A DNA stretch of 24,918 bases from a virus. The notes below the pieces were generated by a model, which did no database searches, was not told the DNA's origin, and worked only from the letters and a program-made list of their open reading frames with translations. Below, in pieces: positions 7,433 to 23,378 of the stretch. Position 1 is the first letter of the stretch; the number at the start of each line of letters is the position of its first letter. Location of the stretch: positions 1 to 24,918 of the IMG/VR virus record IMGVR_UViG_3300042143_000004, one strand, 5' to 3'. A program made the position numbers and the translations under genes.

Positions 7433-8755
7433 ATGGGACGTTTTGCAACATTTTCGTTAAACTCTAACAGCGCTATTATGCTACCTTCTAGTGCAGCTGA
7501 TGCTGATGCAGGTAAGGTGCTTATCGTCAAGGAAGCTGATAAGGTGGTATTAAGCGCACTTAAATTTCCAACTTCTGTAGAAACTACAGATGCTGGAAAG
7601 ACACTTGTAGTTGATGGCACCGGTAAGCTAATATACAAGGCTGTACTTCCTTTACCTGCTACACTGCCTATAGCAGGTAAGATACTACAATCGGATGGTA
7701 CTACAATTATAGATTCTGGGTTCACTTTACCGACAGCTGCAGTAACCACCGATATTGGTAAAGTCCTAACAGTAACTGACTCCGGCGTAGTTGACTTTAC
7801 TGCACTATCAGTAGCTGTTCCTACAATATCTTATTGGAATAGTGGTACTTCCTATGCACCTGTACTACCTGATTCAAGTACATTACTATTCGGGAAGACC
7901 GGCGTAACCACTCTAGTAGTAGGTGGTGATGTATGTGATGGTCGCTACTGTAGCGCAGCAGGTCTGTGTTGCCTATGGACTGTTCCTACTGGTGCTACAG
8001 AAGCTGAATTCCAGATTTGGGGAGGTGGTGGTAATAGCGCAGGCTGTAACCATGGTACTTGCTACGCTTTAGGTGCCCCTGGTGGTAATGGTGAGTATAC
8101 TTATGTACGTATGAATGTAACTGCTGGACAGACTTACACGTTATGTGCAGGGGGTGCATTGACACAAGGTAGTTGTTACTCATACACCAACCAAAATGGC
8201 TGTAACTCATTTGTATGCGGTGCTAACTCTACTTGTATTATGTCTTGTGGTGGTCAGAATGGTCTATGCAGTGATGCTACATTTTATTGTACCTACTATC
8301 CTTCTTTCCCTGCAACATATAATAATACCACAATGTGGGTATGTACCTGTGACCAAGGCAATCCTACTGGCGGTGAAGGTACAGGCCAACGCTATCGTCA
8401 TGATGGTGCCTGTGGTGTAGGTAAAGTAACCTCTGCAAACAAAATAGCAGTAATCGCTAAAGTACCTTCTTCTATTGGCAGTACTAAACAGTGCTGTGGG
8501 GGATACTACTATGGCAAGCATAGTAACCGTGGAATTAAGTTAGATCATAGTCTATCTATGACGGGACATTGTGGGCATGTCTCTCAGTGCTATGGCTGGG
8601 GTTGTACGTGGGAAAGCTGTAGAACTAGCTACTCTTTAGAGCCTGGACGCTTTCCTGGGATGGGTGGTGTACCTTCTGCATATTTCTGTGGGTCTTATGA
8701 CAGCTACTATGGAGACCGTGGTGCTTCGGGCTTAATTCGTGTATCTTACAAGTAA
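7433..8755 (+). CDS. Gly/Cys-rich fibre tip protein
   Basis: This 440-residue protein has AAGGAG before its ATG. Residues 1-130 are repeated short units of the type DAGKVLxVxxxGxVxxxxL, a known fibre-surface repeat. From residue 168 to the end I count 24 cysteines together with many Gly, Tyr and Trp residues. The segment includes EFQIWGGGGN and GAPGGNGEYTYV, which match the Gly-rich tip domains of phage and cyanophage fibres. The C-terminus GASGLIRVSYK is a typical final strand. The likely role is receptor contact. The cysteine load is unusual for a protein folded in the cytoplasm and may mean metal binding, buried thiols or oxidation after release. Confidence 0.75.
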   Translation: MGRFATFSLNSNSAIMLPSSAADADAGKVLIVKEADKVVLSALKFPTSVETTDAGKTLVVDGTGKLIYKAVLPLPATLPIAGKILQSDGTTIIDSGFTLPTAAVTTDIGKVLTVTDSGVVDFTALSVAVPTISYWNSGTSYAPVLPDSSTLLFGKTGVTTLVVGGDVCDGRYCSAAGLCCLWTVPTGATEAEFQIWGGGGNSAGCNHGTCYALGAPGGNGEYTYVRMNVTAGQTYTLCAGGALTQGSCYSYTNQNGCNSFVCGANSTCIMSCGGQNGLCSDATFYCTYYPSFPATYNNTTMWVCTCDQGNPTGGEGTGQRYRHDGACGVGKVTSANKIAVIAKVPSSIGSTKQCCGGYYYGKHSNRGIKLDHSLSMTGHCGHVSQCYGWGCTWESCRTSYSLEPGRFPGMGGVPSAYFCGSYDSYYGDRGASGLIRVSYK

Positions 8756-9466: not shown

Positions 9467-9502
9467 ACTTACATGTTTTTAGCGAAAAGTGGGGAATTTT
9501 AT

Positions 9503-10429
9503 ATGAGAAGAGCTTTTTTTATTAATGGTGGTATAGGACGCATACTTTGTGCACTGCCAGCGCTAGAGTATTATGCTAAAAATACAGACCAGTCTGTAAT
9601 TATTGTTGCTGAGGCGTGGCCAGAAATTTATGCTTTAAGTCCTGTCTTACGCAATAACGTCTATCCAGCAGATCATAAAGATATGCTTAAGCTACTTAAG
9701 AACCATGAAATCATAAGCCCTGAGCCTTACCGACTCAATGCTTACTTCAATCAGAAGGCTAATTTAATTCAAGCATTTGATATGCTTATTAACTATAAGC
9801 AACCACCTAAAGCTGTACCAGCTAGCAAGTCTTTCAATCTTGTACCGTCTAAGACAGAAGATGCCTATGCAGAGAGCATTATAAGCCAGATTAAAAAAGA
9901 TACAGGTAAGTCTAAAGTAATAGTATTCCAGCCACTAGGCTCTAGTGCTAAAGTAGATAGTGGTGTTTTAGTAGATCCATCAGGCCGCAGTTTTGAACAT
10001 AAAGATATTATTACTATCACTAAAGCACTCACTAAAGATTACGCCGTAATATTAATGACTAATATAGACATCCCAACTAAAGAGCCTATGCAAGCAGCAA
10101 TATTAAATAATGCCAGCATGCTACATTGGGCTAGTATAATTAGTAAAGCTAATTATTTTATTGGCTGTGATTCTGCAGGGCAGCACTTTGCTAATGCTAT
10201 GGATATACCTGCCACAGTAGTTATCGGTGCTACCTATCCTGAAAATATTACCTACCCTGAAAATAGTAATTTTACAGTTGTAGACCTTGGGGTAGGTCGT
10301 CGTATCTATTCGCCTATACGTGTTAACAGCGATGCTATGATTGAGCGTAATAATGAAAACCTAATGAACATGACAGACCAACAGGTACAGCAAGTTATTA
10401 AAACATTACAAAACAAGATGGGGGCATAA
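9503..10429 (+). CDS. Glycosyltransferase family 9-like (heptosyltransferase fold)
   Basis: This 308-residue protein has the two ends of the GT9 fold. At the N-terminus FINGGIGRILCALPALEYY corresponds to the GIGDxLxALPAL loop. In the C-terminal half WASIISKANYFIGCDSAGQH, with GCDSAGQH at residues 221-228, corresponds to the nucleotide-sugar-binding segment, followed by NAMDIPATVVIGATYPE. The expected product transfers a sugar from a nucleotide donor to a glycan or other acceptor in the cytoplasm. ATG 9503 is chosen over ATG 9473 because GTGGGGA precedes it and it starts right at the fold. The carbamoyltransferase gene follows one base after the stop, so the two probably act on the same product: host or virion glycan, or modified DNA. 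Confidence 0.85.
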   Translation: MRRAFFINGGIGRILCALPALEYYAKNTDQSVIIVAEAWPEIYALSPVLRNNVYPADHKDMLKLLKNHEIISPEPYRLNAYFNQKANLIQAFDMLINYKQPPKAVPASKSFNLVPSKTEDAYAESIISQIKKDTGKSKVIVFQPLGSSAKVDSGVLVDPSGRSFEHKDIITITKALTKDYAVILMTNIDIPTKEPMQAAILNNASMLHWASIISKANYFIGCDSAGQHFANAMDIPATVVIGATYPENITYPENSNFTVVDLGVGRRIYSPIRVNSDAMIERNNENLMNMTDQQVQQVIKTLQNKMGA

Positions 10430-10430
10430 T

Positions 10431-12242
10431 ATGCATAGTAATACTACAGGGTACATCTTAGGTGTTTCTAGAGGACATAATGCAGGAGTATGCTTACTTA
10501 AAGATGGGAAAATAGTGTTTAGCTTAGAAGAGGAACGCCTCTCTAGATATAAATATGATGGTTCTCCTTATGCAGCTATTAAGAAAGTCTTAGAATACAC
10601 AGACAAAGTAGATTTTGTCGTTACAGTACATACGCAAGCACTGCGCGGTGGCAACTCTACTGCAGGCATAGTAGAGTATACAGGCGATGATACTTACACA
10701 GGTTTAGCACGTAAGTTTGGACTAATTGATCGTACTATTAAAGATGTTCGTAATCACCCCCAAGTAATTGATATGTCATTACGTCACCATGCAACTCATG
10801 CAGCTGTAGCTTTCTATAACTCTGGTTTTGATAAAGCAGCAGCAGTAGTTATTGATGGCGCAGGTAGTGCTTTTAATGACAACTCTGGTAACGTGCTATG
10901 GGAAGTTGAGTCTATTTTAGATTGTTCTTATACTAATGGTATACAGACCGTGTTTAAGCACCTAGGGTGTCGTGAGCCTATCCCTACGTATACCCAAAAA
11001 GGCAGTGGTGAATTCTTTGGCGAGCCTAACTCTACAACTACAGTAGTCGTTTCAGATAGGGCAGGTATTGTAAAAGCCTATGAAGCAGTAACTCAGTTTT
11101 GTGGATTCCACGCAATTGAAGCAGGTAAAACAATGGGACTATCCCCCTACGGCAGAGAAAACCAAGGTATCCCTGCTATGATGCTTGCAAATACGAGTAT
11201 CCCATTAGTATCAAGAGATGTAATTTTACCTACTTACCCTAATGCGGCTATCTTAAACAGTATGTTATACCCGGCCCTAGCAGAGGTAGTAGAACAAGGA
11301 AAAGATGCAACACTTTTACAGTCTCGTAGGGATGCTGCTTACTGGGTACAAAGGGAATCTCAAGACGCGGCTTTAGCTTGTATACTACAAGCGGTAAACT
11401 TAACTGGTAATAGTAAAGTAGTCCTATCAGGTGGGTATGGGTTGAATTGTGTGGCTAACTATTACTATCTAACTAAGTTAAATGAACTTGGTATTGAGTT
11501 GTATGTTGAGCCCATTAGTAATGATGGTGGTACAGCAATAGGTGCAGCTTTACTATTTTATTATGAAAATACCCCACAGGACACAGCTACACGCCCTAAA
11601 TTAGACTCTCTTTATCTAGGTCCGCAGTATCATTACTCAGATGCTGATTTTGACACAATGGCTACTAAGTTTAATGCACAAGTCATCTCGAATATAACTA
11701 ATAAAGAGATTGTAGATTTACTTATAGCTAAGAACATAGTATGTATGTATCAAGGTAGGTCTGAGAATGGTCCTAGGGCATTAGGGAATAGAAGTGTGTT
11801 ATTTGACCCTACATTTAAAGATGGCAAAGACTATGTTAACTTAATTAAGCGTAGAGAATACTTCCGTCCATTTGCTGCTTCTGTGCTAGCCGATAAGGCT
11901 GACAAGTGGTTTGACTTACGAGGCATGTCTTCATCACCTCACATGATGTATGCGGTTAACTGCTTAGACGGGGTAGCTGAAAAAATCCCATCAGTAATAC
12001 ATGAAGATAATACATGCCGTATTCAAACAGTTACCGCTGAGCAGAATAGTAACTACTACGACTTAATTCAGGAGTACGAGAAGGTAAGTGGTATACCTCT
12101 ACTATTCAACACGTCATTTAACTTAGGTGGTGAACCTTTAGTGGAAACGTTAGAAGATGCCTTCTGGACCTTATCTAAATCTAATCTACAGTACTGCTAT
12201 TTCCCAGAGTATGGTAAACTAGTACTTATTAAAAATACTTAA
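10431..12242 (+). CDS. O-carbamoyltransferase, NodU/CmcH/TobZ family
   Basis: This 603-residue protein has the normal length and both domains of the family. The N-terminal Kae1-like part starts ILGVSRGHNAGVCLLKDGKI and EEERLSR. It contains HHATH at residues 119-123 (metal-binding His) and VIDGAGS around 140-146. The C-terminal part has GRSENGPRALGNRSVLFDP starting at residue 442, the family's strongest signature, followed by YFRPFAASVL and LLFNTSFNLGGEP. These enzymes make carbamoyl-adenylate from carbamoyl phosphate and ATP and transfer the carbamoyl group to a sugar or other hydroxyl. A GGGGG ribosome site precedes ATG 10431. In phages the acceptor may be a glycan or, as reported for some family members, 5-hydroxymethylcytosine in DNA; the acceptor here is unknown. 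Confidence 0.93.
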   Translation: MHSNTTGYILGVSRGHNAGVCLLKDGKIVFSLEEERLSRYKYDGSPYAAIKKVLEYTDKVDFVVTVHTQALRGGNSTAGIVEYTGDDTYTGLARKFGLIDRTIKDVRNHPQVIDMSLRHHATHAAVAFYNSGFDKAAAVVIDGAGSAFNDNSGNVLWEVESILDCSYTNGIQTVFKHLGCREPIPTYTQKGSGEFFGEPNSTTTVVVSDRAGIVKAYEAVTQFCGFHAIEAGKTMGLSPYGRENQGIPAMMLANTSIPLVSRDVILPTYPNAAILNSMLYPALAEVVEQGKDATLLQSRRDAAYWVQRESQDAALACILQAVNLTGNSKVVLSGGYGLNCVANYYYLTKLNELGIELYVEPISNDGGTAIGAALLFYYENTPQDTATRPKLDSLYLGPQYHYSDADFDTMATKFNAQVISNITNKEIVDLLIAKNIVCMYQGRSENGPRALGNRSVLFDPTFKDGKDYVNLIKRREYFRPFAASVLADKADKWFDLRGMSSSPHMMYAVNCLDGVAEKIPSVIHEDNTCRIQTVTAEQNSNYYDLIQEYEKVSGIPLLFNTSFNLGGEPLVETLEDAFWTLSKSNLQYCYFPEYGKLVLIKNT

Positions 12243-12252
12243 TGGGTGATGT

Positions 12253-12546
12253 ATGCAAAGATTAGTATTAGTTATTGTGCTCTTACTAGCCATAGTAACG
12301 TTTACATACTGGGGCTTAAGGTATGTATGGTATTTTGTAGTAAACCCTAGCGTGTCTTGGAAACTAGCAGTAAGTTTAGACCAATTAGCTAATACTACTA
12401 TAAATGGTAACGAAGATGAAACGATTAGTTCTAGAGCAGGTAGACATAGCCAAAATAATACCGACCGTGAGTGTTGGGCAGTGTGGCTGTGTTGGTTGCT
12501 TGATAAAATCGACCCGAGTCACTGTGAAAAGAGTATAGGAGTATAA
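12253..12546 (+). CDS. Small membrane protein with DETISSRAGR motif, intact copy
   Basis: This 97-residue protein has one N-terminal membrane segment (about residues 4-28) and then ISSRAGRHSQNNTDREC. It ends WLCWLLDKIDPSHCEKSIGV, which matches the LLDxIDxxHCxxS ending typical of the family. It is the undamaged version of the gene at 2360 and shares a 72-bp identical block with it. Small proteins of this type lie in or beside lysis regions of many phages, and this one opens the run of membrane-protein genes here. Its role is unknown. It ends one base before the next start. Confidence 0.75.
   Translation: MQRLVLVIVLLLAIVTFTYWGLRYVWYFVVNPSVSWKLAVSLDQLANTTINGNEDETISSRAGRHSQNNTDRECWAVWLCWLLDKIDPSHCEKSIGV
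12403..12474 (+). repeat. 72-bp direct repeat, right copy
   Basis: This is identical to 2522-2593. It is followed by TGGGCAGT (12475-12482), which is missing from the left copy, and then by the shared GTGGCTGTGTTGGTTGCT. AGTGT occurs on both sides of TGGGC, so slippage could explain the deletion in the left copy. Confidence 0.95.
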
Positions 12547-13948: not shown

Positions 13949-14257
13949 ATGAATAAGAAAGATATGTTAAAGAATGTTGGTACAGATTTTAGGTTTTATT
14001 TACTATTAATACCAGCGACTCTTATACTAATGATAGATGTACCAATGCTATTAACAGTATTACAAGCAATGTCAGTAATGCTTATTGTAGCTGCTGTAAG
14101 TCATATAACTCGCAAAATAGCATTTCCTTACCTAGATATGGAAAAAGTGATGCTTAAAGCTATAGAGACTGCTTCAGGGGCAGGTTACGTGTTTTTAGGG
14201 GTTAGTGGTTTATTAATGGCTATGGTAGTAGGTTCAGTGCTATGGTTATCCCACTAA
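13949..14257 (+). CDS. Putative holin (three membrane segments)
   Basis: This 102-residue protein has hydrophobic segments at about residues 16-32, 35-52 and 78-99. The conserved-looking middle reads RKIAFPYLDMEKVMLKAIET, then GAGYVFLGVSG. The gene overlaps the endolysin gene by 16 bases, and holin directly before endolysin is the common order. Three membrane segments fit a class I holin. The holin call rests on topology and position, since I see no decisive family motif. Confidence 0.65.
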   Translation: MNKKDMLKNVGTDFRFYLLLIPATLILMIDVPMLLTVLQAMSVMLIVAAVSHITRKIAFPYLDMEKVMLKAIETASGAGYVFLGVSGLLMAMVVGSVLWLSH

Positions 14258-14931
14258 TAACGATATTAGCTGCATTAACTTACAATATAGTTAGTGCAGC
14301 AGACCATGCAGTATTAGCAGCATTACCAAGTAACGCTCAAGTTTACCTACCGTTACTTAGGTCAGAAGCTACAGCACAGTGGCCAACTAATAAAAATTTA
14401 ACACTACTAGCAGCACAAATAGAACAAGAAACATGCCTTAGTATGAAGCACTCTAAATGTTGGTCTCCACTGGCGGAGTTAAAGACGGATAGAGAGTGGG
14501 GAGTAGGTTTTGGTCAGTTTACCAAGACTAGTAAATTCGATACTATTAAAGAGTTACGAGATAGACATAAAGACTTATTTGGTAACTGGTCATTTGATAA
14601 TCCTTATCAACCTGTATATCAGATGCGTGGTTTAGTAGTTTATATGCGTAATATCAATAGTAGTATAAAGAATACTACTAACGACGATGAACGATACGCT
14701 ATGACCCTATCAGCTTATAATGGAGGTCAAGGGGGATTGATGAAAGACAGGATGCTTTGTAATAATACCCCAGGATGTGATAATACTAAATGGTGGGGTA
14801 ATACGGAGAGTACCAGCTTTAAAGCTAAAACAGCTGTTAAAGGTTACGGTAAAAGTTTCTATACTATTAATAGGGAATATGTAGTGCAGATAATGAAGGT
14901 TCGCTATAAGAAATATGAAGGAGCTTTTTAA
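14242..14931 (+). CDS. Endolysin, lytic transglycosylase (SLT/lysozyme fold)
   Basis: This 229-residue protein has an N-terminal hydrophobic signal or signal-anchor segment (residues 2-18, ending VSAAD). The catalytic region has the SLT order of motifs: AAQIEQETCLS with likely catalytic Glu63, GVGFGQFT at about 87-94, and LSAYNGG at 156-162. It would cleave the glycan strands of peptidoglycan in the periplasm. The signal segment lacks the usual positive charge at the start, which would fit a signal-anchor-release endolysin activated when the membrane is depolarised; that is inferred. It overlaps the holin gene and is followed directly by Rz. Confidence 0.85.
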   Translation: MVIPLITILAALTYNIVSAADHAVLAALPSNAQVYLPLLRSEATAQWPTNKNLTLLAAQIEQETCLSMKHSKCWSPLAELKTDREWGVGFGQFTKTSKFDTIKELRDRHKDLFGNWSFDNPYQPVYQMRGLVVYMRNINSSIKNTTNDDERYAMTLSAYNGGQGGLMKDRMLCNNTPGCDNTKWWGNTESTSFKAKTAVKGYGKSFYTINREYVVQIMKVRYKKYEGAF

Positions 14932-15252
14932 GTGTATTATTTTATGCTGTTAGTAATAGGTATGGGGATAGGTGGAACTGTACAAGAGTGGCGATACAGT
15001 GGTATACTTGCTGAAGTAAATGCAGAGCATAAAGCAGAATTAGATAAGATTAGAGATGAGACTTTAATCCAAAAGAATATGCTAGATAAATTGGGTGCTG
15101 ATTTAGCTCAAGCGTTAATAGCAAAGAAAGATAAGAGAAGAGAGGCGGTAGTAGTTAAGAACGAGGAAGTTAACAATGTACAAAAAAGTAATCCTGCTAA
15201 ATGTAAGTTTGATGATAAGTGGGTGCAGTTATACAACGAGTCCTTTAATTAA
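14932..15252 (+). CDS. Rz: Inner-membrane spanin (Rz-like)
   Basis: This 106-residue protein starts with GTG at 14932, directly after the endolysin stop. It has an N-terminal membrane segment (residues 2-16) and then a long charged helix (about 20-85), the usual i-spanin layout. The Rz1-like gene begins within its 3' part in another frame, which strongly supports the call. The pair joins the inner and outer membranes at the end of lysis. The C-terminal Cys in AKCKFDD may form an inter-subunit disulfide. Confidence 0.82.
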   Translation: MYYFMLLVIGMGIGGTVQEWRYSGILAEVNAEHKAELDKIRDETLIQKNMLDKLGADLAQALIAKKDKRREAVVVKNEEVNNVQKSNPAKCKFDDKWVQLYNESFN

Positions 15253-15418
15253 GCCAATGCCACAACCGCAATTACTAGCTGCTCCATTACAGCCTTTACC
15301 ATTTAATGGTGGAGATGAGTACGATTTATTACGGCTGCATCTAGAGAATAAGAGTAGATGGGCAAACACTAGGGATCAATTAGAAAAATTGATAGAATAC
15401 GTCAAAAGTTTAAATTAA
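15176..15418 (+). CDS. Rz1: Outer-membrane lipoprotein spanin (Rz1-like)
   Basis: This 80-residue protein begins inside the Rz-like gene and overlaps it by 77 bases in a different frame. The N-terminus MYKKVILLNVSLMISGC is a lipoprotein signal with lipobox ISGC; lipidated Cys17 would start the mature protein. A Pro-rich part follows (PMPQPQ, then PLQPLPF), as is usual for o-spanins, and a C-terminal helix. It extends past the end of Rz, so the arrangement is overlapping rather than fully embedded. The product would sit in the outer membrane and bind Rz across the periplasm. Confidence 0.85.
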   Translation: MYKKVILLNVSLMISGCSYTTSPLIKPMPQPQLLAAPLQPLPFNGGDEYDLLRLHLENKSRWANTRDQLEKLIEYVKSLN

Positions 15419-15427
15419 AGGGTGCAC

Positions 15428-15952
15428 ATGAAAATCGATTCTACCACATTACCACTAATCCAGAAACAGATTATGTATGAAAATACTAACTCTATTATCT
15501 ATCTGCACCTACATAATTGGTGTAAGTTCAATGGCTATAATGCAATGGCTAAGCTATTTAAGAAGCAAACAGACGACGAACTGATGCATCGAGATAGATT
15601 TATTAAACTACTACTAGATAGTGGTTATATGCCAGAGCCTTATGCTACAGAGGCATTTAAGTTTACTATTACAGTACTAGAAGATTGTGTTAAAGCGGCA
15701 ATTAAAATAGAGCAGAAAACTACGGCAGAAATTACTGCTATTGGTATGGCAGCAGATGCAGCGAAAGACTATAACGTGTACCAGTTTATTCAATGGTTTA
15801 TTGAAGAGCAGCGAGAAGAAGAGGCTCTGTTTATTGATATTATGGATTTCTGTACTAACATCGGCTTATTCGATAAAGAGACACCAGAGTGGTTTAAAAA
15901 GAATCTACGCAATGAATTAGAAAAACGTACAGAAGAAACTCTGGAAGATTAA
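15428..15952 (+). CDS. Ferritin, complete with ferroxidase centre
   Basis: The 174-residue protein, counted from ATG 15428, matches bacterial ferritin (FtnA) along its length. Ligand positions match E. coli FtnA with a constant offset of one: Glu18, Glu51, His54, Glu95, Gln128 and Glu131, with Asp50, Glu127 and Glu130 at the third iron site. Supporting stretches are SIIYLHLHNWCKF, DDELMHRDRF and FIQWFIEEQREEEALF. Ferritins form 24-subunit cages that oxidise Fe(II) and store Fe(III). ATG 15428 has AAAGGG five bases upstream; GTG 15422 would add two residues. The gene lies between the spanins and the portal and should be expressed late. Ferritin genes are rare in phages; the role here (iron storage, protection from oxidation, or iron for the virion) is open. 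Confidence 0.92.
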   Translation: MKIDSTTLPLIQKQIMYENTNSIIYLHLHNWCKFNGYNAMAKLFKKQTDDELMHRDRFIKLLLDSGYMPEPYATEAFKFTITVLEDCVKAAIKIEQKTTAEITAIGMAADAAKDYNVYQFIQWFIEEQREEEALFIDIMDFCTNIGLFDKETPEWFKKNLRNELEKRTEETLED

Positions 15953-15962
15953 AGGTAATAAT

Positions 15963-18900
15963 ATGGCAGTTGATAAACACGAACTACTTACAGCCCTTAA
16001 ACGAGATTTAAAGGCAGCTGAAACTACGAAAAAATTATGGGATTCAAAGAGAGCGGACTACAAAGCTGCGCATGATGGCGAGCCTTATGGCAATGAAGTG
16101 GAAGGTCGTTCTAGGATAGTTAGTAGAGAGATTAAGAAGCAAAGTAGCTGGAGTATTCCAGCACTAGTAGATCCATTCGTTAGTAGTAATGATGTTATTA
16201 AATGTCATCCTATTACAGCAGAAGATACATTAGCAGCTAGACAAAATGAGTTGTTACTAAATACGCAGTTCTGCCGTAAGTTTAATAGATACAATTTTAT
16301 GAATAAGGCTATTAGTATTCTTGATGTACAGGGTACAGTAGTTATCCAGACAGGTTGGGAATACGAAGACTCCAAAGTAATGGAAGAAACAGAGACAGTA
16401 GCTATAGATGAATATGGTAATGAGTATATTACTACCGAAGAAGTAGAACAGACTATCGTTAAGAAGAACCAACCTACTGCTAAAGTATGTCGTAACGAAG
16501 ATATTTATATTGACCCTACATGCGAAGATGATATGGATAAATGCCAGTTTATTATCTATAGATATGAGACAGATATTAGTACATTACGTAAAGATGGTAG
16601 ATATAAGAATTTAGAAAGAGTAGAGAGCTCACTAGGTACAACTACTCATGATGCAGACTATCGTCCAGAGGATAAGACACGTTATCAGTTTGGTGATAAT
16701 CCTCGTAAGAAACTTATAGTACACGAGTACTGGGGTAACTATGATGTAGATGAAGACGGAGAAGCAGAAGCTATTGTATGTGCATGGATTGGTAATACTA
16801 TTATTAGATTACAAGGCAATCCATATCCAGATGGTAAGCCTCCATTCATTATTGTGCCTTATAATGCAGTACCATTCCAAATGTTTGGTGAAGCAAATGC
16901 GGAATTAGTTGGTGATAATCAGAAAATTAAAACTGCTATTATTCGTGGTATTATTGATAATATGGCACAAAGCAATAATGGACAAATCGGCATTCGTAAA
17001 GGTACATTAGACATAGTTAATAGAAAGAAGTTGCTACAAGGCAAGAATTTCGAGTATAACGGTGATGTTAGCTCTATTTGGCAAGGTAGTTATAATCCTA
17101 TTCCTAGCAGTGCTTTTGATATGATAGCTTTAATGAATAACGAGATTGAATCATTAACAGGTACTAAGAGCTTTAGTGGTGGTATAAGTGGTAACTCATT
17201 AGGAACTATGCTAGATATAAATACTGATGTTCCTATGATAGATGGTTCTGTTAAGCTGTTGGGTGATATTGTAGATGGCGATGTAATCGTAGGGTCTAAT
17301 GGTAAGGGAACTACCGTAGTTAAAGCCCATGAGATTGCGTACCCTAAGCAAGCCTATGATATGGTATTTGGTGACAGTACAGTAATTAAGTCCGGTGGGG
17401 AGCACCTATGGACAATTAAAGTCTTTGGCACTAAGCATAGGTTAATAGAGTGGCATACTGTTGATGCAGATACCGTGTACGCTCACCTGCAGGCAGGTCG
17501 TAGGGTAGTAGTCCCTAAGATGAGGGAAGTACACACAGGGACTAGAGCTACAAGTACTATAGACCCTTATGTACTTGGGTACTGGTTAGGTGACGGTATG
17601 AGCTATAGTGCTAGTATAACTACTATGGACTATGAAGTGGTAGAGTACTTTAATGCAGCAGGGTACCAATGTGTACCGGTTAAGGGTAGTAGTAAGTGCG
17701 AAAAAGCTACCATGTATGACGTATACAAGCATGGGGTAGATAATGGGTCACTACACGGAGAGTTAAGGGAGCTTAACCTGTTAGCTAGATATGAGGGTGG
17801 TGGTAAACATGTTCCTGAAATGTTTATGACCGCTACCTACGAAGAGAAAATGGAGCTAATTAGGGGGCTTATGGATAGCAATGGTTATCACCATGGCAGT
17901 TCCTTTGTGCAGTTTGCTCAGTCTGAAAGTAGGTTAAAAGATGATGTTATAAAGCTACTAGGTTCATTGGGGTTAGCTGTTAGTACTCGTGTTAAAGACA
18001 TGGATAAGATTAACGAGGCTAAGCTACGCCACTCACTTGCTACCGGTACAAAGATGGTATGGTCTAGAAGAGATATATATGAGATAGGATTTACTCCTTG
18101 GAGTAACCCATTCAAGATTACACGTAAGGCAGAAGGGTGGAATGCACCTAGATGTAAGACAGTACGAATTACGTCTATGACGAAAGTAGATAATGTGCTT
18201 ATGCGCTGCTTAACGGTGGATAGTGAAGATAAATTATTTGCAGTTACTGATAGGTTTATTCTTACCCATAATACTGCTACTTCCGCTAGGGGTGCTATGG
18301 ATGCTCAATCCGTACGTAGGATGCATATCGTTCGTAATATTGCAGAGAATTTAATTAAACCTTTACTGCGTAAGTGGATGGCATACAACTCAGAGTTCTT
18401 AGAGGACGAAGAAGTAGTTCGTATTACTAACGAGCAATTTGTACCAGTACGTAGAGATGATTTAAGTGGAAGTATAGATATAGATTTAAGTATTGCTACT
18501 ATGGAAGATCAAAGTGCTAAGTCACAAGAGTTAAGTTTCTTATTACAGACGTTAGGTAATACAGTGGCTCCAGAAATTACTCAAGAGTTAATGGCACAGA
18601 TTTTAGAGCTAGGTAGAATGCCAGATCAAGCTAAGACAGTTAGAGAATTTAAACCAGAACCAGACAAAGTACAAGAACAGCTGAAGCAACTAGAGTTACA
18701 AAGACTGCAGATAGAGATTCAGAAAGGAATGTCTGAGATTAAACGTAACGAAAGTATTGCCGCAGAGAATAATATTGATAGACAAGTTAAGTTAGCAAGA
18801 GCAGCCAGAGATGAAGCGCAAGCTAGACTAATTCACAGTAACGCTGATAAGACAGACCTAGAGTTCTTAAAAATAGATTCAGGCGAGAATGAAGCAGCAG

Positions 18901-19079
18901 AGATTAGAAAGGAGATAGCTAAACTGCAGGCTAAGTTAGCAGAGAAAGATGCAGACCATCGTTATAATTTAGAACATAAAGTACTAGATCATAAAGCTAA
19001 ATTAGATGTAGAAGCAGTAAAGGCTATGCAGAATGACAAAAAGTTGGAACATAATAAAAATAACAGACTTAATAAATAA
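15963..19079 (+). CDS. Portal protein precursor containing an intein
   Basis: The full frame is 1038 residues. Residues 1-415 and 771-1038 are the portal; about 355 residues between them are an intein. The portal begins with a helical region (LLTALKRDLKAAETTKKLWD) and the clip-proximal core SSWSIPALVDPFVSSNDVI, continues to GTKSFSGGISGNSLG, then after the intein TATSARGAMDAQSVRRMHIV. This is the conserved portal segment read across the splice point. The C-terminal 160 residues are a charged coiled coil (KVQEQLKQLELQRLQIEIQK). The spliced product would be about 683 residues, fitting N4-like portals. The portal forms the dodecameric DNA gate at one capsid vertex. The portal call rests on this pattern, the capsid neighbours and gene order. 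Confidence 0.88.
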   Translation: MAVDKHELLTALKRDLKAAETTKKLWDSKRADYKAAHDGEPYGNEVEGRSRIVSREIKKQSSWSIPALVDPFVSSNDVIKCHPITAEDTLAARQNELLLNTQFCRKFNRYNFMNKAISILDVQGTVVIQTGWEYEDSKVMEETETVAIDEYGNEYITTEEVEQTIVKKNQPTAKVCRNEDIYIDPTCEDDMDKCQFIIYRYETDISTLRKDGRYKNLERVESSLGTTTHDADYRPEDKTRYQFGDNPRKKLIVHEYWGNYDVDEDGEAEAIVCAWIGNTIIRLQGNPYPDGKPPFIIVPYNAVPFQMFGEANAELVGDNQKIKTAIIRGIIDNMAQSNNGQIGIRKGTLDIVNRKKLLQGKNFEYNGDVSSIWQGSYNPIPSSAFDMIALMNNEIESLTGTKSFSGGISGNSLGTMLDINTDVPMIDGSVKLLGDIVDGDVIVGSNGKGTTVVKAHEIAYPKQAYDMVFGDSTVIKSGGEHLWTIKVFGTKHRLIEWHTVDADTVYAHLQAGRRVVVPKMREVHTGTRATSTIDPYVLGYWLGDGMSYSASITTMDYEVVEYFNAAGYQCVPVKGSSKCEKATMYDVYKHGVDNGSLHGELRELNLLARYEGGGKHVPEMFMTATYEEKMELIRGLMDSNGYHHGSSFVQFAQSESRLKDDVIKLLGSLGLAVSTRVKDMDKINEAKLRHSLATGTKMVWSRRDIYEIGFTPWSNPFKITRKAEGWNAPRCKTVRITSMTKVDNVLMRCLTVDSEDKLFAVTDRFILTHNTATSARGAMDAQSVRRMHIVRNIAENLIKPLLRKWMAYNSEFLEDEEVVRITNEQFVPVRRDDLSGSIDIDLSIATMEDQSAKSQELSFLLQTLGNTVAPEITQELMAQILELGRMPDQAKTVREFKPEPDKVQEQLKQLELQRLQIEIQKGMSEIKRNESIAAENNIDRQVKLARAARDEAQARLIHSNADKTDLEFLKIDSGENEAAEIRKEIAKLQAKLAEKDADHRYNLEHKVLDHKAKLDVEAVKAMQNDKKLEHNKNNRLNK
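17208..18272 (+). mobile_element. Class 3 intein with LAGLIDADG homing endonuclease
   Basis: Precursor residues 416-770 form the intein; the first residue is Met416 (or Thr415), not Cys or Ser. Block A reads LDINTDVPMIDGSVKLLGDI then VDGDVIV. Block B is GDSTVIKSGGEHLW with His481 and Trp483. Block F is MRCLTVDSEDKLFAV with Cys749. The end is ILTHN, with Thr768, His769 and Asn770, followed by +1 Thr771. Trp (B:12), Cys (F:4) and Thr (G) are the triad of class 3 inteins, in which the block F Cys is the first nucleophile and the N-terminal residue is not. A two-motif LAGLIDADG endonuclease is inserted: VLGYWLGDG (537-545, Asp544) and LIRGLMDSNG (632-641, Asp638), so both catalytic acids are present. 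Confidence 0.9.
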
Positions 19080-20339: not shown

Positions 20340-20367
20340 TTGACAAATAGTACGTACTATGTATAAT
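20340..20367 (+). promoter_or_regulatory. Perfect-consensus sigma70 promoter with palindromic spacer
   Basis: TTGACA (20340-20345) and TATAAT (20362-20367) both match the sigma70 consensus exactly, with a 16-base spacer. The spacer holds a perfect 14-bp palindrome, ATAGTACGTACTAT (20347-20360), placed where a repressor or activator would block or bend the promoter. It would start transcripts near 20374, ahead of the 198-residue-frame gene (ATG 20431), the scaffold-like protein and the capsid protein. A related imperfect GTACATGTGTAC follows at 20378-20389. Confidence 0.8.
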
Positions 20368-20430
20368 CTAATATGAGTACATGTGTACGTATTATTAATA
20401 ACTTGTAATCAATAAATGAAGGAACTCTTA

Positions 20431-22175: not shown

Positions 22176-23378
22176 ATGGCAACACAGATTTATGGTAATG
22201 GTACCACCACAGCGTCAGCAGGTGTTAATACCGTCATCCATCACTACGACCGTGCTGGTATCGAAGCTGCTAACGCAGTAAACGTATACCAACAGTTTGC
22301 TTCTGCTAAACAGATGCCAACTAACTCGGGTAAGACATATAAAATTAGTAAGTTCCTTAAGATGTACGACCGCGATCAGTTCGAGTCAAATGGTACAGTT
22401 AAAGCGGACTTTGCTAAATATGGCTACTTGACAGGTCGTGCATTGGCAGACGTACAGGCAGGTTTAACAGCTTCAGCTTTGGCAGAAGGGGCAGGTGCAG
22501 TTAACCAAAAAGGCATTAAAAAGATCACAGTAGAAGCAACAGTAAACCGTTATGGTGAAATGACCGAGTATTCGGACGAAGTAGATTTGTTCTCGGAAGA
22601 TATTATTCAAGCACGTTACCGTGAGTCTTTAGGTGAACTTGCTAACCGTCGTTGGGAAGATTTGCTACAGTTAGACATGTTAGCTACTCCTACACGCATG
22701 TACTCAGGTGTTGCTACATCTCGTGCTACAGTAGGCGGTTCAGTATCTGCAGACGGTACAGACGACGCAGAAGCGATGATTAGCTACGATTTAGTTCGTG
22801 CCGCTACTCGTAAGCTTACAGCTAACCGTGCTAGTAAGAATACTGAATTGGTAAAAGGCTCTGTTAAGATTGATACCATGACAGTTGGTAAAGCTTACTA
22901 TGCTATTATCGGTTCTGACGTTAAGAAAGACATGGAAAACCTTACACGTGGTTCTAGCTACGAGAAAGAGTTCGTATGGAAACCAGTACAGAAGTACGCA
23001 GATGCATCTATGCTAGCTGATGGTGAAGTAGGTTCAATGTATGATGTACGTTTTATCGAATCAGAAGCAGCTGTCGTGTATCGTCAAGCCGGTGCTACAG
23101 TTCCTACAAGTTATGCAGGTAACTTGCAGTATACTGGTATTATTGGTACAGATGCTAAGTTCGATGTATTCCCAGTACTTTTCCCAACTAAAGATGCATT
23201 TGCTACAGTTGGCTTAAAAGGTAAAGGTAAGATTACATTTAACTCTGCAGGTCCTGCTGAAGTGAGTATCGTTAACCCTTACGGTACAAAAGGTTTCTTC
23301 TCTTATAACTTCTTCTATGCTGGCATCATATTAGAGCCAGAAAAGCTTTTAGTTATTGAAGTAGCTTCTAGTAAGTAA
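22176..23378 (+). CDS. Major capsid protein, N4-gp56 family
   Basis: The length of 400 residues is right for the family. The N-terminus has the family pattern VIHHYDRAGIEAANAVNVYQ, then AKQMPTNSGKTYKISKF, LAEGAGAVNQKGIKKITVEA and TVNRYGEMTEYSDEVDLFSE. A central RYRESLGELANRRWEDLLQLD helix and a C-terminal YGTKGFFSYNFFYAGIILEP follow, as in HK97-fold capsids. It forms the icosahedral head. Codon use shifts toward more GC-ending and strongly used codons here, which fits high expression. It is followed by a clear terminator, so the preceding promoter and this terminator delimit a head-gene unit. Confidence 0.93.
   Translation: MATQIYGNGTTTASAGVNTVIHHYDRAGIEAANAVNVYQQFASAKQMPTNSGKTYKISKFLKMYDRDQFESNGTVKADFAKYGYLTGRALADVQAGLTASALAEGAGAVNQKGIKKITVEATVNRYGEMTEYSDEVDLFSEDIIQARYRESLGELANRRWEDLLQLDMLATPTRMYSGVATSRATVGGSVSADGTDDAEAMISYDLVRAATRKLTANRASKNTELVKGSVKIDTMTVGKAYYAIIGSDVKKDMENLTRGSSYEKEFVWKPVQKYADASMLADGEVGSMYDVRFIESEAAVVYRQAGATVPTSYAGNLQYTGIIGTDAKFDVFPVLFPTKDAFATVGLKGKGKITFNSAGPAEVSIVNPYGTKGFFSYNFFYAGIILEPEKLLVIEVASSK

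Follow-up and report, generated by a model that had tools for sequence, protein, structure and literature searches.

The virus sequence analysed here, IMG/VR record IMGVR_UViG_3300042143_000004 in its full length of 24,918 bases (the window), almost certainly encodes an Ftn ferritin that belongs to the phage and has kept its diiron site intact. The gene (15428..15952, + strand; 174 amino acids, ATG start, TAA stop) lies between lysis genes and a portal gene. We put at roughly 60% the probability that its product is a functional FtnA-type accessory ferritin that oxidises Fe(II) and stores iron late in infection, limiting peroxide damage. Viral ferritins are already on record; what lifts the present case above the ordinary is a recurrent linkage of ferritin to portal genes, together with an altered third iron site.

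The start codon is better placed at the ATG at 15428 than at the GTG at 15422, judging from the sequence, because the GTG falls within a Shine-Dalgarno-like AAAGGGTG, which with the stop codon of the preceding spanin gene occupies 15416..15427 (+ strand), and because the nearest homologue begins at the same Met. The protein belongs to Pfam family PF00210 (E 4.5e-22; 78.9 bits against a curated cut-off of 24.5) and falls in PHROGs into the unnamed family phrog_16594. The NCBIfam FtnA model NF007638 matches it at 2.8e-21 with 76.2 bits, short of the equivalog cut-off of 178 bits, and we regard it as FtnA-type rather than as an FtnA orthologue. In the PDB, FtnA from E. coli and from Vibrio comes closest to it in sequence (about 1e-18). 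The AlphaFold model (mean pLDDT 96.1) has five helices, at residues 8-34, 38-64, 84-111, 115-144 and 154-172, that is, the four-helix bundle and short fifth helix of an Ftn, and the top Foldseek matches are the E. coli and V. cholerae ferritins (1e-8, TM 0.84-0.90). The homology is far beyond chance. Three other identities were considered and set aside: bacterioferritin, for which no bfr equivalog in NCBIfam matched at 1e-3; Dps, since FtnA is best by both sequence and fold and no Dps model appeared among the Pfam and NCBIfam results; and rubrerythrin, whose Pfam and NCBIfam matches were weaker or absent.

The alignment with E. coli FtnA has no gaps over residues 11-144 and a constant offset of +1. 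The six main iron ligands, which the preliminary description had placed at such an offset, are all present: FtnA Glu17, Glu50, His53, Glu94, Gln127 and Glu130 correspond to E18, E51, H54, E95, Q128 and E131 of the window protein (codons at 15479, 15578, 15587, 15710, 15809 and 15818, within 15479..15820, + strand). These form the complete intrasubunit A/B diiron site of an Ftn, and FtnA Tyr24 is matched by Y25 (15500). In an alignment of 65 diverse ferritins, nine columns and no others are without variation (Y25, E51, H54, E95, E127, Q128, E130, E131 and E132), and E18 is nearly invariant.

The claim that three third-site acids are conserved as well held only in part. All three positions are acidic, and FtnA Glu126 and Glu129 are retained as E127 (15806) and E130 (15815), as is Glu130 of the third site, but the position of FtnA Glu49 is occupied by Asp50 in the window (15575..15577, + strand) and by Gly in its nearest relative, L024. 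Glu stands here in all 166 rows that come from bacteria or prophage flanks and have a proper site; among 75 viral rows, some of them duplicates, 62 have Glu and 13 have Gly or Asp. The 13 are the window, L024 and 11 ferritins of a set of viruses that we call group D, and the replacement occurs only there. The third site thus appears to have drifted in the window/L024 lineage. In E. coli FtnA, mutation of Glu49 lowers the Fe:O2 ratio from about 3 to about 2, and the centre regenerates faster (PMC4653698). Because the third-site Glu49 is replaced, the window ferritin is predicted, by analogy, to act like the E. coli site-C mutants, with about 2 Fe per O2 and a faster regeneration of the ferroxidase centre.

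The C-terminal tail (residues 148-174; 15869..15949, + strand), with its predicted helix at 154-172, also departs from the bacterial pattern. Bacterial homologues end in a fifth-helix motif like GxALFFIDKDL; in its place the window and L024 proteins have conserved tails that are predicted to be helical. Between the two, the tail is 73% identical and residues 1-60 are 57% identical.

A scan with the major capsid protein (22176..23378, + strand; 54-58% identical to Alteromonas phage capsid proteins) returned 80 related loci. L024 and L026, two of these, are separate assemblies of one virus that agree at 8520 of 8540 bases; the ferritin of this virus, 66% identical to that of the window, lies 9 bp (stop to ATG) upstream of the portal gene. 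The genes upstream of the ferritin are not the same in this virus and the window virus; therefore, ferritin and portal stayed together while their neighbours changed. This bears on whether the window gene is an assembly chimera or host contamination, an account to which the databases lend a certain plausibility: many IMG/VR ferritin matches are host flanks of predicted prophages, and most of those in isolate-genome prophages are found where a contig ends and resemble flanking host DNA (L002-L019, our negative control). Here, however, the same junction recurs in L024 and L026, phage genes stand on both sides, the GC and GC3 of the ferritin gene match those of neighbouring genes, and no sampled bacterial ferritin exceeds 32% identity. 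The two assemblies make a chimera very unlikely, and we allow that account virtually no weight; the ferritin gene is genuinely the phage's own.

The same data argue against a passenger gene (a moron) picked up recently from a host and of little or no use to the phage. Between the window and L024 ferritins pN is 0.218 and pS 0.709, with dS near saturation, and the gene is under purifying selection similar to that on the capsid gene. That selection has persisted across 34% protein divergence with every A/B ligand kept, and the 32% ceiling to bacterial ferritins tells against a recent acquisition. What speaks for a passenger is its patchy presence and variable slot. L023, the closest relative by capsid protein, has no ferritin and carries directly before the portal a short lipoprotein-like ORF, probably an outer spanin; the ferritin is also absent from 20 further related records, several of them fragments, and the window's family has a hypervariable slot just ahead of the portal, with 23 gene families at 41 loci. 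The ferritin is accessory in this phage group, and we consider it improbable that it is a mere passenger. The group itself is, by its proteins, N4-like (Schitoviridae-type): portal and capsid are of N4 type (PF23899, phrog_1216), relatives are annotated with an N4 gp59-like portal, and the named relatives are N4-like phages of Alteromonas. The giant virion RNA polymerase is not within the 25-kb fragment; the relative PT11-V19 has a long gene for an RNA polymerase downstream of that for the capsid protein.

As described beforehand, the ferritin sits beside lysis and portal genes, and the array is tight and on one strand. It comprises a holin (13949..14257; phrog_8226, 4e-10), an endolysin with SAR endolysin relatives (14242..14931; phrog_669, 1e-22), an Rz-like inner spanin (14932..15252; phrog_4297, 1e-5), an Rz1-like outer spanin whose gene is nested in that of the inner spanin (15176..15418; phrog_1267, 3e-6), the ferritin, and an intein-interrupted portal protein of SU10/N4 type (15963..19079; PF23899, 2e-135; phrog_1216, 9e-173), all on the + strand. 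Between 10431 and 15963, where the portal gene starts, genes lie on one strand with gaps of at most 10 bp or overlaps, and the ferritin stop TAA overlaps the AAAGG ribosome-binding site of the portal gene (15950..15965, + strand, including the start of the portal ATG at 15963). This packing and this overlap make it likely that the ferritin is co-transcribed with the lysis and head genes, which by analogy with other phages would be late genes. Late expression, which the preliminary description had stated outright, is inferred here from gene order. A promoter scan of the window gave fewer promoter-like sites than shuffled sequence did, and we accordingly assign the ferritin gene none.

Several other features of the window may be recorded. 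A perfect sigma-70 consensus (TTGACA-16-TATAAT) lies at 20340-20367 on the + strand, ahead of a gene at 20416. The intein within the portal gene (17214-18272) has a LAGLIDADG-like domain; its first residue is seemingly Asp, not Cys or Ser, its end is HN|T, and L050 has a 63% identical intein at the same portal site. A diversity-generating retroelement occupies 60-1861, with Avd at 224-622, a reverse transcriptase at 869-1861, a variable repeat at 60-167 and a template repeat at 652-759; the repeats differ at 17 positions, all of them among the 26 template adenines. The ORFs at 2360-2626 and 12253-12546 have a nearly identical stretch, GNEDETISSRAGRHSQNNTDREC, with a relative at 1297-1596 of L026. 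At 9473-12242, a Nol-type carbamoyltransferase gene (phrog_1601, 1e-159) directly follows a weak heptosyltransferase-like gene; surface or DNA modification is a possible role for these genes.

According to PHROG scans of neighbours, the portal genes that have a ferritin gene next to them come from no fewer than four families unrelated to one another: phrog_1216, phrog_2739, phrog_6547 and phrog_2662. The order is ferritin-portal (phrog_1216) in the window, terminase-portal (phrog_2739)-ferritin in L293, and terminase-portal (phrog_6547)-ferritin in L303, L319 and L320; in L303 and L319, a gene of 400 residues and then a capsid protein (phrog_11589) follow the ferritin. Group D has terminase, ferritin and portal (phrog_2662), with one small gene between the last two in L343. 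In L332 and L377, the ferritin lies a few genes ahead of terminase and portal. When group-D portals alone were used as the seed (portals 37-100% identical to the query, grouped into distinct viruses by eye), 10 of the 13 viruses had a ferritin gene immediately ahead of the portal, in one of them a partial gene at a contig end; the exceptions are L389, L394 and L395. The stop and start codons of the two genes overlap (TAATG or ATGA) in most. Three remoter portals (29-30% identity to the query) have no ferritin upstream. Among the matches listed in a literature search of titles and abstracts, there was no report of ferritin-portal linkage in phages.

Such an arrangement suggests that phages may manage iron during the production of new particles, and it invites the proposal that the ferritin works inside or at the surface of the head under assembly: attached to the portal or to the procapsid, or carried within the virion, it would shield DNA during packaging or export iron in the particle. 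Adjacency in the four portal families (the window; L293; L303, L319 and L320; group D) speaks for this, as do the frequent group-D position and codon overlap and the confinement of Gly or Asp at position 49 to window/L024 and group D. However, the pre-portal slot of the window's family is the hypervariable one mentioned above, and several phage ferritins are far from the portal: the L306 type, L322 (a DNA polymerase beside it), L326 (a tRNA nucleotidyltransferase) and L329. The ferritin scans involved no selection for portal proximity, but the pattern was seen after the fact, module boundaries tolerate insertions, and gene neighbourhood by itself is no proof of a physical link. We hold a head-linked role, in either function, to be unlikely, although the recurrent adjacency lends it some indirect support. 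Slightly less likely still is a whole class of head-module ferritins, expressed together with the portal and at work in the procapsid or the virion. Several phage lineages unrelated to one another would have arrived at this class, two of them with loss of Glu49, which would link ferroxidase turnover to head assembly. As to the L306 group, L306, L310, L312 and L295 belong to a freshwater-type phage ferritin clade beside a conserved gene of 650-710 aa; we rejected this neighbour as an unrecognised portal, its NDLDIFI-type motif marking it as nucleotidyltransferase-like.

Whether the portal-adjacent ferritins form one clade depends on the comparison made. The window/L024 pair sits on a long branch. 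One tree joins the window, L293 and group D (support 84/89); another has a Sedimenticola ferritin as the neighbour of the window pair (76/84). A single portal-adjacent clade is not rejected by AU tests (p 0.39 and 0.27). Profile comparison scores the window pair at 176 against bacterial FtnA and at 99 against group D, which favours bacterial FtnA over group D as its nearest kin. Since the placement shifts with taxon sampling and the profile scores are nearer to bacterial FtnA, we set aside the single clade; repeated acquisition seems likelier. The pre-portal position and the Glu49 loss common to window/L024 and group D may then be convergent, although two lineages are suggestive only.

Full ferritins had been called rare in phages. 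They are uncommon but not singular, given published mentions and about 60 metagenomic contigs, some near-duplicates, with FtnA-type ferritins in ferritin-alignment scans of IMG/VR. In many of these contigs, from records of up to 395 kb, the ferritin is mid-contig; phage neighbours were checked for the named loci. All viral ferritins tested keep the A/B diiron ligands, which suggests that catalysis is selected. Among 50,697 phage records searched by tblastn, there was no credible isolate with a ferritin, and the few GenBank phage matches were either short gut contigs that carry no annotation or came from a single Staphylococcus source. The latter consists of unannotated Staphylococcus "phage" records with a ferritin gene (OR845001.1, 36102-36512, and OR850087.1), which seem likely to contain host DNA. 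In L021, a lambdoid-type prophage in an isolate genome, a host-like FtnA gene (7974-8471) lies on the opposite strand between lysis and terminase genes.

Returning to the preferred reading, that of a functional accessory ferritin, the fold, the complete diiron site, the phage residence, the purifying selection and the tight lysis-head packing were computed, and the steps that follow are conditional. Transcribed late with the lysis and head genes, as their order suggests, the subunits would assemble into a ferritin cage (24 subunits in the Ftn family), oxidise Fe(II) at the A/B sites and store Fe(III). Labile iron would thereby be taken up as the iron enzymes and the homeostasis of the cell fail, and there would be less Fenton damage to replicating and packaged DNA. 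Two points count against this reading: the C-terminal helix is unlike that of bacterial ferritins, and most related phages are without the gene. A further proposal, the published Ferrojan horse hypothesis, has iron in tails or fibres exploiting host iron-uptake receptors, and a putative tail-gene-linked ferritin is known in Vi01-like phages (PMC10892097). In that case, hosts deficient in TonB and in FeoB were infected no less readily than the wild type (PMC10892097), and the window gene has lysis and head genes around it rather than tail genes; we consider this very improbable here.

The window ferritin offers a concrete protein for the idea that phages manage iron. If it is active, lysis would free iron as a caged mineral, altering what neighbouring microbes can use; should it prove to act at the head, virions or their assembly would turn out to have an unforeseen component. 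For ferritin enzymology, a third-site ligand that was lost in nature offers a ready comparison.

Among known systems, the FtnA proteins of E. coli and V. cholerae (1eum, 4ztt, 3qz3) are alike in fold, length, A/B ligands, Tyr24, Gln127, Glu126 and Glu129; the window protein differs in being about 28% identical, in having Asp or Gly (L024) for Glu49 and another C-terminal helix sequence, and in being phage-encoded beside a portal. A ferritin listed among the oxidative-stress genes of freshwater phage genomes is likewise phage-carried; the passage that lists it gives no details of site or position (PMC6802176). BFVD entry A0A8D9C9X5, from an uncultured marine phage, is also a named non-heme ferritin, and its model is 23% identical to that of the window. 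The bacterioferritin encoded by a lake-sediment virus (PMC10904782) is an iron-oxidising cage protein of a phage or archaeal virus and is also under purifying selection, but it belongs to a different subfamily. The Dps-like proteins of Lactobacillus phages (PMC6669764) and Gratiaviridae (PMC8008677) are members of the ferritin superfamily proposed to act against oxidative damage; Dps proteins are dodecamers with the ferroxidase centre between subunits, whereas the window ferritin has its diiron site within the bundle of each subunit. SynFtn of marine Synechococcus (PMC7762939), thought to serve in stress response, has an incomplete third site too. It is a cellular protein in which the site-C side chains are wholly absent, whereas in the window ferritin only the Glu49 position has changed.
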